A stretch of 54,915 nt of DNA from a virus. The notes beneath the pieces were generated by a model. It was not told where the DNA came from, ran no database searches, and saw nothing but the letters and a program-made list of their open reading frames with translations. Location: IMG/VR virus record IMGVR_UViG_3300025115_000013, positions 1 through 54,915 of that record. One strand, written 5' to 3'. Position numbers and translations under genes: made by a program. Below are positions 14,201 to 47,022 of the stretch, piece after piece. Within the stretch, counting starts at the first letter, position 1; each line of letters opens with the position of its first letter.

Positions 14201-14575
14201 TTAGATGCGTTGACCGCGGATCTGTTCTACTTGTTCCTTTAAATCCAAATACGCTTTGTTCTTTTCTGCTTTGTTTAGATACCGTTTTGGTGGCGCCTGA
14301 ATTTGTGTAAGCCCAGTTTTCGGGTCAAACATTACCCAGCGGCCATCAATTTTTTCCGGGTACGGTTTCTTTCCAGAGAAACCAAGAAACTTTCTATATT
14401 CGGCTTCCCTAACTAGCAAGTCCTTTGTTTCCTGTCTATATCGGTCAGGCAAATCATGCACCCAATTAAGAACGTTAACGAGATGGCCGAGCTTCATTTC
14501 TTTTATTTTTATTACCCGGCCATCCGCACTGCCCCATGGATGTTCGCGCCAGCTAAGGTCACCGAACGATTCCAT
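14201..14575 (-). CDS. Hypothetical protein, 124 aa
   Basis: A basic, proline- and tryptophan-containing soluble protein with a charged helical C-terminus. I do not recognise it. It lies one base downstream of the SPFH gene and is closed by a terminator, so the two form an operon unit with higher GC and different codon use than most neighbours. Confidence 0.6.
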   Translation of the reverse strand: MESFGDLSWREHPWGSADGRVIKIKEMKLGHLVNVLNWVHDLPDRYRQETKDLLVREAEYRKFLGFSGKKPYPEKIDGRWVMFDPKTGLTQIQAPPKRYLNKAEKNKAYLDLKEQVEQIRGQRI

Positions 14576-31037: not shown

Positions 31038-31330
31038 CTATTTTGGGTTATAAGGGATAGTTCCCCCAGAGTTATCATGCTGCTAGAGCATATACCTCAT
31101 TGTTAGCTGCGTTTGCAGTTATAGTTTTGTTTTCTTCGACCGGGTCTGCCGACCTTCATGGCTATGAGCCATGCGTCAACACAGAATACCCCAATCCTAC
31201 GGCTTCAAACTCTTGCCGAGCGCCATTCGTTCTATTTAACCCTTTGTCGATTCCTTTCACCCCCTCAGTGGTGGAGGTGGCGGCATCCGAGAGCCGCGTC
31301 CAAAAAGCTCTTAATAACTAAGGTTTACGC
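31038..31330 (-). ncRNA. ssrA: Circularly permuted tmRNA (ssrA)
   Basis: Read on the minus strand, the gene starts with the T-arm and 3' acceptor strand (CACCTCC, discriminator A, CCA at 31269-31271), then only four bases, then the 5' acceptor strand GGGGGTG (31258-31264) and the tmRNA-like GAAAGGAATCGACA. The acceptor has a G3-U70 pair, the alanine identity element. The tag frame at 31075-31116 encodes ANAANNEVYALAA and TGA. This order is that of permuted, two-piece tmRNAs, which rescue stalled ribosomes and tag proteins for proteolysis. The T-loop is atypical (8 nt). Ends are approximate. Confidence 0.88.
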
Positions 31331-31414
31331 TGTTTTTAATCTCCCTCTTTTAAGTCCTAGTATGTCAAATTTATTGTCATTTGGCAATAAAATAAAAATT
31401 TTGTTTTCCGTCAT
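31325..31414 (-). CDS. Possible tiny protein, 29 aa
   Basis: An ATG-started frame (MTENKIFILLPNDNKFDIL) without a clear Shine-Dalgarno site, just upstream of the tmRNA. Weak support. Confidence 0.25.
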   Translation of the reverse strand: MTENKIFILLPNDNKFDILGLKRGRLKTA

Positions 31415-43949: not shown

Positions 43950-44060
43950 ATCCTTTCTCAGCTCGAGGTTATGTCGTCTGAGACTGTGCAAATTAAACCA
44001 CCGCAGCGGGTATTGCACTTTAGCAGTATCAGTGACTGCTCGGCACTTGCATAAGTAAAC
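43950..44060 (-). ncRNA. Three-hairpin structured element
   Basis: Three consecutive hairpins: TCTCAG/CTGAGA (about 43954-43982), GTGCAA/TTGCAC with an inner ACCGC/GCGGGT (about 43985-44022), and AGCAGT/ACTGCT (about 44024-44041). No coding frame. Confidence 0.5.
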
Positions 44061-44066
44061 AACTTA

Positions 44067-44141
44067 GGGGTGACCGGTGGGTAACGCTCCCACTCTACCT
44101 CTTTCACAGAGAGGGTTGCTAAACTTTTACAATACGGTCAC
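44067..44141 (-). tRNA. tRNA-His(GTG) with altered T-loop
   Basis: Anticodon arm CCTCT-CTGTGAA-AGAGG, acceptor GTGACCG/CGGTCAC, T-arm GTGGG-AGCGTTA-CCCAC. The 3' end reads CCC rather than CCA. Confidence 0.82.
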
Positions 44142-44162
44142 ACTTAAATTGTCTACTGCATT

Positions 44163-44441: not shown

Positions 44442-44872
44442 ATCTGTGTTATTTAAATATCCTTTGCAAGACATTTAAGTAACACAGCAGTGATCTAATA
44501 GATTATTATAATTACTGTAATCTATGGATTCAGTTGCTGTCGTTACACTTGTTATCAGCCTGAGACTAGAGCTAATACGTTAGACCTTGCGCCGACGATT
44601 ATCACAGCCTTGCGAGCTGCTTTCCGCCCTCTTCCACCATAATCATATAGTAGTCCAACATCGCTGCCTTTTTATACTAGTGGCGTTTCTAGTGTAATGT
44701 ATGACTACTCGGTCTTCTGTCTACCGCCAACCTTGCGGGCTGTGCAGGGCATGACCCCTTACGTGCAACTTCTTACCAACATCCTCTACCTTGCGAGCTT
44801 TGGATGACTCCGTTACCTTGCGGCCGGAGCATTAAGCGATTTTCACCATACATCAGGAACGACTTTGCGTTT
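44442..44872 (-). ncRNA. Hairpin-rich non-coding region
   Basis: No gene. Hairpins by eye: TGTGTTA/TAACACA (44445-44486), ATAGATTA/TAATCTAT (44498-44525), an AGTAGTC/GACTACT element with an inner ACTAG/CTAGT (about 44654-44718), CATCC/GGATG and CTCCG/CGGAG. Several loops contain the motif CGCAAGG on the minus strand. Confidence 0.5.
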
Positions 44873-44947
44873 GTGTATAAATGGTTGGAATTGAACCAAC
44901 TGCATTCTTCTTAAAAGGAAGACGCTCTACCATAGAGCAACATTTGC
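44873..44947 (-). tRNA. tRNA-Lys(TTT), second copy, weak acceptor
   Basis: Anticodon arm TCTTC-CTTTTAA-GAAGA, D-arm GCTC/GAGC and T-arm GTTGG-TTCAATT-CCAAC are good. The acceptor has mismatches near its end and CCA is not encoded (CAC). Confidence 0.75.
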
Positions 44948-45552
44948 AACCTACCTCGAAGAGCGTTCCTTGTTGCTTCATATCCTTTTAGGATACAAAA
45001 TACAACTCTCCGAATACCTTTTGCCTGCCGGCTACTCAGTCGTCTTTCTGGATTAGTGTCCTGTACGCTTGCGCGAGGCCATAAACCCATAAAACTGCAC
45101 AACAGCCTTTCCTTGCGGGGTTGGACCGTTGCACTACCCTTTCTCATACCTGCTAATTAGTTGGTTTGCTAGTGAAGTCAGCACCACCTGTTACTTTCCA
45201 TCTGCTCAAGTTCCCATTGATGCAATCTCAGGCTTGTAAGCAAACGTTCTTTCCACTAACTCTAACTTTACAGTTAGCCCCACCCGTCTTTTAAGTGAGG
45301 CCTGCGTCGCCGCAGTGAGCTGGCTTGCTTAAATGGACCATTACTGGCGCAAGTGCGTAGGCTTCCTTGCTTTGGGCACCTCACGGTGCTTACCCTAATG
45401 ACGTTAAGCCGCCAAAACTCTACAACTTAAAACTTGTTTGCTGAGCTGCATTGCCCAAACCGGGAATCACACTCTTATCCGCTTGACTCAGTTGCTGTAT
45501 ATCTCTATACATGCTCACTATCGTGATACCGAATCAAGTTTCAGCAAATTCT
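44948..45552 (-). ncRNA. Hairpin-rich non-coding region
   Basis: No protein gene and no full tRNA found. Short perfect hairpins include CTAACT/AGTTAG, CTGCG-TCGC-CGCAG and GCACC-TCAC-GGTGC. CGCAAGG occurs again near 45110. It is probably part of the long array transcript. Confidence 0.4.
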
Positions 45553-45629
45553 TGGTTGCGGAGGCAGGATTCGCACCTGCGATCTCCGGGTTATGAGCCC
45601 AGCGGGGACGGCTTCTCCCCTACTCCGCG
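45553..45629 (-). tRNA. Initiator tRNA-fMet(CAT)
   Basis: Initiator hallmarks: C1-A72 mismatch in CGCGGAG/CTCCGCA and consecutive G-C pairs in the anticodon stem CTGGG-CTCATAA-CCCGG. T-loop TGCGAAT, CCA encoded. The D-arm (GGGG...CCCC) is unusually GC-rich. Confidence 0.9.
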
Positions 45630-45724
45630 TCAAATTCTTCTCTACGCTCCCCGCCGATATTCTCACCGGGCTTACTTGGTGTATCCTGTGCTCTGTCACA
45701 GTTACATAGAGTCAAGTCAACTTC

Positions 45725-45853
45725 TTTGATATGCTGTCTCTTCCCTTTTCCTTGTCTTACGGTCCAAGAGTTAGACCATCGCAGTGTCAATTCCGGTACA
45801 ATGAATGATCAATTTGACCAAGCAATGAATTGCCAATCAGGCAGCATATCAAA
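45725..45853 (-). ncRNA. Long-stem structured element E1
   Basis: A perfect 12-bp terminal stem (TTTGATATGCTG / CAGCATATCAAA) encloses about 105 nt with inner repeats (CAATGAAT twice, ATTCATTG) and a GGTC/GACC hairpin. No ORF. Confidence 0.6.
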
Positions 45854-45986
45854 AACTTTGAGTGGTAACAATAGCGCAGTACAGACTACGATCTCTTACT
45901 GACCCTTTTAAAGAGGCAGTCGTCTGATTTATTCATAGCATGTATTATTCTGACCTGAACCTATTACCAGTTCAACTCTACTATAA

Positions 45987-46091
45987 CCACATTTATTCAC
46001 ACTCAAGGAGGAGTCGAACCTCTTTATAGTCTACGGCTTTTATTTTCCAGGCCCTGCTAGCTAGACAGGCACTGAATGTGAATAAATGTGG
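45987..46091 (-). ncRNA. Long-stem tRNA-like element E2
   Basis: Perfect 15-bp terminal stem, CCACATTTATTCACA / TGTGAATAAATGTGG. Inside, on the minus strand, are a D-arm-like GCCTG/CAGGGC hairpin and a T-arm GAGG-TTCGACT-CCTC next to the stem, in tRNA order. There is no CCA and no normal anticodon arm. Confidence 0.7.
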
Positions 46092-46190
46092 TGTCGGTCT
46101 AAGGGATCTATCTCCGACAGTACAGAATTGATTTCAACCACCCTGCGCAGGTTGTCCACTCATTTGTGTCCCTGGCGCATCTGCATCTAA

Positions 46191-46322
46191 CCACATTTAT
46201 TCACACTCCCAGAGAGTTATCAAATTTCTCTGTAACATTTGGATGCATCGAGGGTAATTACTCCTCTCAACCGTCTCCACCGAATGCTGGCGGTTATTAG
46301 ACAGAAATGTGAATAAATGTGG
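46191..46322 (-). ncRNA. Long-stem cloverleaf element E3
   Basis: It has the same 15-bp terminal arms as E2. The interior folds into three arms: AACCG/CGGTT, GAGG/CCTC and CAGAGA/TCTCTG, giving a four-way junction of cloverleaf type. No T-loop sequence, CCA or ORF. Confidence 0.68.
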
Positions 46323-46529
46323 CGTCATATCGTTACCGGTCAGGGCTATTGTCTGACTTCGCATTCTACTAAACATCGATGACCACTTGTGACTAGCAAG
46401 CGTCTAACGATGGAGTTCAAATGCTACTTACCACAAATATAATGGCTTAGCAAGTCTCCTGGACTTTGTATAATGACGCACCATTAACCATATACAATTG
46501 GTGTGCCGTCTCCCGACGGGGTAATAATG
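46323..46529. other. Non-coding spacer with hairpins
   Basis: No gene. GCACCA...TGGTGTGC (about 46479-46507) is a clear inverted repeat. Confidence 0.4.
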
Positions 46530-46629
46530 TTTGTCAGAATGTTCTCCATAGTCCCGAATCGAACGGGATTATCTGCAAGACAATAGGGTATCCGTACCCT
46601 GGAACATTACGTTGTCGCCTACTGACAAA
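46530..46629 (-). ncRNA. Long-stem tRNA-like element E4 with TGC anticodon arm
   Basis: Outer stem TTTGTCAG/CTGACAAA, then inner stem AATGTTC/GAACATT. Within it, in tRNA order: D-arm GGGT-ACGGAT-ACCC, anticodon-like arm ATTGT-CTTGCAG-ATAAT (TGC) and T-arm CCCG-TTCGATT-CGGG. CCA is absent because the acceptor continues as a stem. Confidence 0.68.
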
Positions 46630-46706
46630 TTCTTGATGATTCTTCTTACCTACCATCACCACCGAGTGGCTAGGCTTCTTAGGGCCAGGAATCTATCATC
46701 AACCTA

Positions 46707-46779
46707 CATCCTAAAGTGATTTCGTCAGTTCTAATCGTTTTGCGAACCAGGCATGGACTCGTAAAATCACTTTAGGATG
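46707..46779 (-). ncRNA. Long-stem element E5
   Basis: Perfect 16-bp terminal stem CATCCTAAAGTGATTT / AAATCACTTTAGGATG around 41 nt with a GTTC/GAAC hairpin. Just beyond it lies a second hairpin, CCCTTGG/CCAAGGG (46782-46802). Confidence 0.65.
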
Positions 46780-46994
46780 TCCCCTTGGCATTGCACCAAG
46801 GGATCCTTTGTTTATCGCTACCATCTTTCACTCCACATAAGGAGATCCATACTCCGGTAGGCCGCCCTTTTGCAGGATGTTTTTTTTGGTGCCCTGCGGG
46901 ACTGCGTTCCCCATTAACACCGACCTACTCTACTACAAATCTCGTCGCTGTTTTTAACTACTCCTTATAACTTGTTGCGTTAATCAGTTTTCGT

Positions 46995-47022
46995 ATTATA
47001 CAGCTTTAAATTTCCTTGTCAA
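46995..47022 (-). promoter_or_regulatory. Sigma70 promoter of the RNA array
   Basis: Minus strand TTGACA, 16-nt spacer, TATAAT. It lies in the last codons of the 55-aa gene and points into the structured RNA and tRNA array, for which it is the obvious start. Confidence 0.85.

Follow-up and report, generated by a model that had tools for sequence, protein, structure and literature searches.

In bacterial pre-rRNA, RNase III cuts the helices formed between leader and trailer, for which more than 17 bp are needed in E. coli (PMC10250234). A comparable arrangement occurs in a tRNA island of the window (the whole 54,915-base viral record analysed here), where two small elements, units 1 and 2, are each enclosed by such a helix. 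As in the pre-rRNA case, a long (>17 bp) flank helix closes a structured RNA in a longer, tRNA-carrying transcript, here a predicted one; against the ~17 bp or more that define a leader-trailer stem made from the flanks of a structured RNA, the two stems have 22 and 21 pairs. Unlike the pre-rRNA helices, which surround 1.5-3 kb, those of the window enclose cargo of ~65-90 nt, one helix sequence serves two unrelated cargoes, and cleavage is presumed by analogy.

The species 1 and 2 RNAs of T4 (rnaC and rnaD; 139 and 119 nt, NC_000866 70908-71171) are likewise two small RNAs in a phage tRNA cluster, with a T-arm in rnaC as in unit 2. The features that mark such RNAs (small size, a phage tRNA cluster, tRNA-like features) are present here through position and the T-arm of unit 2; when compared by fold, however, rnaC and rnaD have neither a long closing stem nor shared arms. 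Long stems in the same kind of locus also close several pre-tRNAs (tRNA-His of the window, tRNA-Pro of RAS14 and G007, tRNA-Asn of G007 and Phosso), in which the stem is coaxial with the acceptor stem and the cargo, unlike that of units 1 and 2, is an ordinary tRNA. The GOLLD RNA (RF02032) of the window shares the transcript strand and island of the 15-mer block described below, 540 bp away and behind tRNA-Met, but is a separate element, the block having no match to its model. Rfam covariance models run on 45640-46990 gave no more than four matches at E<=10, all of them at chance level, and GOLLD, ROOL or another Rfam RNA was thus rejected as the identity of the block. In the literature searched (extended acceptor stems, RNase III on phage tRNAs, permuted tRNAs) we found no description of the stem-closed architecture; subscription journals were thinly covered, and the absence of a description therefore says little about novelty.

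Two consecutive hairpins in a non-coding block

The window carries 37 tRNAs called by ARAGORN, all on the minus strand, and a permuted tmRNA on the same strand (31075-31332; Rfam). Its GOLLD RNA holds a tRNA-Lys in the linker (44875-44947; ARAGORN), a position already known for GOLLD (PMC12286853), and has 68% identity over 621 nt to the GOLLD of IMG/VR contig 3300035181_001013. Between tRNA-Met (45629-45553) and 46995, ~1.36 kb hold no convincing gene on either strand. Units 1 and 2 sit in this non-coding block, between tRNA-Met and a perfect sigma70 consensus (Table 1), and 1.05 kb of the block folds densely. Elsewhere in the window, a 20-position stem with a 75-nt loop between tRNA-Leu and tRNA-Pro (32860-32746, minus) is a candidate stem-closed element, and T-arms outside called tRNAs mark tRNA-like genes with a second, nested T-arm hairpin (40886-40765 and 40678-40584, minus) and a short tRNA-like gene (41953-41886).

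Among loci related through UvsX (77-81% identity), two (L077 and L095) have a TTGACA-TATAAT promoter after the upstream gene, followed by tRNA-Met without the block, and in a third (L048) a short reading frame separates the promoter from tRNA-Met. Because the relatives' promoter runs to tRNA-Met without it, the block is a lineage-specific addition at this place. Behind its tRNA-Met, L095 also has the start of a tRNA-Leu-like gene (14300-14422) that may be intron-interrupted; the contig ends within it.

Table 1. Features of the non-coding block and its surroundings (window coordinates)
Feature	Position	Strand	Basis
15-mer copy, 3' arm of unit 2	45987-46001	+ (reverse complement on RNA strand)	exact match
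15-mer copy, 5' arm of unit 2	46077-46091	-	exact match
15-mer copy, 3' arm of unit 1	46191-46205	+ (reverse complement on RNA strand)	exact match
15-mer copy, 5' arm of unit 1	46308-46322	-	exact match
Unit 1, 139-nt RNA element, 22-pair closing stem from the 15-mer, multi-branched interior	46188-46326	-	fold z -6.6
Unit 2, 112-nt RNA element, 21-pair closing stem from the same 15-mer	45984-46095	-	fold z -4.3
T-arm (AGAGG-TTCGACT-CCTCC) adjoining the closing stem of unit 2	46007-46023	-	T-arm scan
Stem-closed element, 23-nt arms, 83% complementary	45717-45861	-	z -3.6
Folded element with canonical T-arm TCCCG-TTCGATT-CGGGA (46568-46552)	46520-46630	-	z -1.8
Long-stem hairpin, 18 pairs, 39-nt loop, predicted on the same transcript	46706-46780	-	fold z -5.7
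Promoter consensus TTGACA-16-TATAAT, 12/12, reading into the block	46995-47022	-	consensus scan; predicted only
tRNA-Met(cat), directly downstream of the block	45553-45629	-	ARAGORN, Rfam
GOLLD RNA, 3' domain	44557-45013	-	Rfam, 186 bits
tRNA-His inside a 23-position stem of acceptor, leader and trailer; no encoded CCA	44054-44157	-	stem search

Four exact copies of CCACATTTATTCACA are present in the record, against 0.0002 expected from base composition, in the order +,-,+,-; all four sites at which the initial annotation had placed a 15-mer alternating with its reverse complement are thereby recovered. There is no fifth copy in the record at <=1 mismatch, and the next-best matches in the window have 3 mismatches. 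The repeat extends beyond the 15 nt first noted: direct repeats around the copies reach 21 nt and lie at both ends of the two units (TAACCACATTTATTCACACTC twice, 100%; AATGTGAATAAATGTGGYGTC twice, 95%), and per side 18 nt of stem are nearly identical between unit 1 and unit 2. The forward-reverse-forward-reverse order is that of two consecutive hairpins. In unit 1, 46323-46302 pairs with 46211-46190, and in unit 2, 46092-46072 pairs with 46006-45986, both without interruption. The bracketed elements are indeed structured, folding on the minus strand at -52.6 kcal/mol (unit 1) and -38.5 kcal/mol (unit 2), with none of 200 shuffles as good in either case, while the 92-nt spacer between them has no structure beyond shuffles (z 0.1).

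The outer 17 stem pairs have the same sequence in both units. Just past the 15-mer, each stem has a pair that reads U.G in minus-strand RNA but would read A.C in RNA from the opposite strand; further in, the arms differ between the two units with pairing kept (TTTCTG/TGGGAG vs TTCAG/TTGAG). The arms make sense as RNA because they share the strand of the tRNAs, follow a perfect promoter consensus and lie in a tRNA island, and because ordinary tRNAs are among the cargoes of like stems in other phages (see below).

A cluster of DnaA boxes or a replication origin would read the same repeat as DNA, since TTATTCACA inside the 15-mer fits TTWTNCACA and is thus found in all four copies; yet the window has 8 such boxes against 8.6 expected, the GC skew keeps its sign here, and the conserved stretch exceeds the length of a box, which makes an origin very improbable. 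Retron-type non-coding RNAs share with units 1 and 2 complementary arms (a1/a2) and a folded RNA of similar size, but the 54.9 kb record, a fragment, encodes no reverse transcriptase (PF00078), and we regard this identity as the most improbable of those weighed.

The interiors are as wholly different as first described, their best local alignment scoring 14 where shuffled sequence averages 13 (p ~0.35), so that any relatedness is undetectable. Since interiors derived from one another would be expected of a simple tandem duplication, and alignment is at shuffle level, such a duplication is rejected. Canonical T-arms number two in 45641-46990 against 0.03 expected (0/2000 shuffles with two); unit 1 has none. 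Despite its T-arm, unit 2 is rejected as a tRNA: ARAGORN calls none in the block, Rfam gives no tRNA match at E<=10 in 45640-46990, and at the place of the anticodon arm, which should have 5 pairs and a 7-nt loop, unit 2 folds into 3 pairs with a loop of 10 nt.

Instead of being processing sites, the stems could belong permanently to a single large structured RNA, or serve intermolecular pairing between units or molecules, as in GOLLD and ROOL assemblies. Arms 2 and 3 can also pair with each other (46208-46190 with 46092-46074, score 18.5), the block is densely folded, and the neighbouring GOLLD is of a kind that forms a 14-mer cage (PMC12286853). Against this, units 1 and 2 each fold well alone, no Rfam family matches the block, and the same stems enclose plain, singly acting tRNAs in other phages; we therefore consider a large assembly unlikely.

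Searches for relatives of the block returned little. With blastn against 50,697 phage records (E<=10), only chance-level pieces were obtained; no contig of IMG/VR carries both arms as a pair at a spacing of 60-90 nt, and the 17-mer CCACATTTATTCACAYT is present there in one contig, as a single copy with no partner at <=1 mismatch. Twenty other viral records at <=2 mismatches yielded four single hits of the arm and zero pairs. Through neighbouring genes, the 523-aa product led to no relatives in IMG/VR or among phages, the 245-aa product to relatives at ~50% identity without tRNAs, and UvsX to 80 loci, none with the block. XacN1 and L013 (G007) were compared first on account of their similar GOLLD RNAs, the flanks of which hold analogous, not homologous, elements. 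Homologues of units 1 and 2 were not found in these searches, and the covariation described below is that of similar stems in the phiCbK group.

The same searches bear on the suggestion that a mobile inverted-repeat unit, similar to a MITE, had inserted twice. In favour of such a unit, the two differing interiors are each bounded by perfect terminal inverted repeats of 15 bp. However, no target-site duplication is visible (the left flanks end in CTAA and TATAA, and the right flanks begin with CGTC and TGTC), the 15-mer is unique to its four sites in the record, neither IMG/VR nor the 20 viral records hold a pair, both copies have the same orientation on the RNA strand, and parallel cases include tRNA cargo. 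Mobility, one of three origins offered in the initial annotation beside recent duplication and gene conversion, is thus not borne out and is highly improbable; what stands of that proposal is one arm sequence around two unrelated cargoes.

Long-stemmed RNAs in other phage tRNA islands

Across ~193 kb of tRNA islands, the window's included, 39 long stems (score >=15) enclose 35-180 nt, against 2.3 expected from dinucleotide shuffles. Counted among them are the alternative arm 2-arm 3 pairing, one stem within the tmRNA match of RcXuper and at least two in annotated genes of RAS14, and the islands (window, G007 from IMG/VR, RAS14, Phosso, phiCbK, XacN1, Atu_ph07, RcXuper, T4 and locus L069) were selected by GOLLD or tRNA matches, not randomly. 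The rest of the window outside the island has 1 long stem vs 0.35 expected, and the T4 island has zero. Many of the long stems (L107, L109, L110, L112 and L012) contain a single 1x1 mismatch ~8-13 pairs from the inner end; units 1 and 2 of the window are without it.

In several islands the cargo is an ordinary tRNA whose acceptor stem runs into the long stem. This is so for tRNA-His of the window, tRNA-Pro of RAS14, tRNA-Pro and tRNA-Asn of G007, and, in Phosso, tRNA-Asn twice and a tRNA-Pro(TGG) that ARAGORN missed. Leader and trailer are paired in 7 of 217 tRNAs, against 0.18 expected when trailers are permuted, and an encoded CCA is lacking in 5/7 of these compared with 16/210 of the others (Fisher p 1e-4).

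For three stems of the phiCbK group, aligned over ten phages, 6, 4 and 5 pairs are changed on both sides with pairing kept; because the sequences are related, there were fewer events than cells, and pairing is poor towards the outside of the second stem. Outside the window, such stems are thus under selection as RNA structures.

Some enclosed RNAs are unusual in themselves. In RcXuper (L110, OP186293.1, 7748-7571 minus) and RpAliso (L124, 1661-1824), the stem-closed cargo reads as a circularly permuted tRNA, in the order T-arm half plus 3' acceptor strand, short loop, 5' acceptor strand, D-arm and 5' half of the anticodon arm, with hand-read anticodons CAC (RcXuper) and CTA (RpAliso). This cargo has no Rfam tRNA match and no annotation, and we came across no mention of permuted phage tRNA genes in the literature searched. 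A further cargo motif, CGYATGnnnRGGRCATnCTTCTA, recurs in four RcXuper elements (L110, minus strand) and in RpAliso (L124, 2133-2349).

One stem sequence around different cargo

Sharing of the outer arms between neighbouring elements is not peculiar to the window. The three stem-closed tRNAs of Phosso have common outer arms, GATGTGYTTWG / CYAARCACATC, that are present nowhere else in its 469 kb. RcXuper has two adjacent elements with outer arms alike at 26/28 positions around unrelated cargo, and RpAliso, a related phage, has the same arms (28/28 outer positions) around a third unrelated cargo. Outer-arm sharing in the window, in Phosso and in RcXuper/RpAliso thus points to a lineage-particular stem sequence reused around different RNAs. 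For the window, the sequences support either a single origin of the arms of units 1 and 2, which would have been by duplication, conversion or cargo exchange, or an identity held by selection.

Such sharing could also mean that the element is an exchangeable cassette, in which new cargo is swapped between constant arms that either attract a sequence-specific factor or take part in recombination. Identical arms around unrelated cargo in three phage lineages accord with this, as does the distribution of element pairs that agree at 20/28 or more outer positions: 5 of 92 where both elements lie in one island (one in the window, one in RcXuper and three in Phosso) vs 4 of 769 across islands, all four between RcXuper and RpAliso. 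Cargo similarity in the arm-sharing pairs is likewise at shuffle level, except for the two tRNA-Asn of Phosso. Duplication followed by fast divergence of the cargo would, however, leave the same picture, and no factor or recombinase was identified; we hold the cassette explanation of the window's repeat to be quite unlikely.

Possible processing of the stem-closed RNAs

We favour a reading in which the four 15-mers supply both strands of two processing stems of the leader-trailer type, or handles, on small phage RNAs, and assign it a probability of roughly 0.6. On this reading, a non-coding transcript would start near 46988 on the minus strand and run through several folded RNA elements, then tRNA-Met, GOLLD and the tRNA array. 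The handles would hold both ends of each element (139 and 112 nt) together and would offer a double-stranded site for excision by an RNase III-type nuclease, as at pre-rRNA leader-trailer helices. The cargo would thus be freed as small, stable RNAs resembling species 1 and 2 of T4, that of unit 2 being tRNA-like in its T-arm only. The handle common to both units would have arisen via duplication, conversion or cargo exchange. RNase III does not call for the same sequence in both handles. Their identity could stem from duplication, from conversion, from cargo exchange or from a factor that reads the sequence, and the data are compatible with any of the four.

More tentatively, and at odds we would call rather long, phage tRNA islands may carry a modular RNA cassette system, with a constant, lineage-specific handle, exchangeable small RNAs and a dedicated factor that recognises the handle for processing or ligation. 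The RNAs exchanged into the handle in such a system might be tRNAs, tRNA-like RNAs and other folded RNAs.

Ultimately, if the processing-handle reading is true, the non-coding, unannotated stretches of large-phage tRNA islands would hold a recurrent class of small RNAs, closed by stems and overlooked in tRNA and Rfam searches, and tRNAs without an encoded CCA would have an alternative maturation route. One stem around unrelated RNAs would then provide a simple computational and experimental handle for finding such RNAs and testing them during infection.
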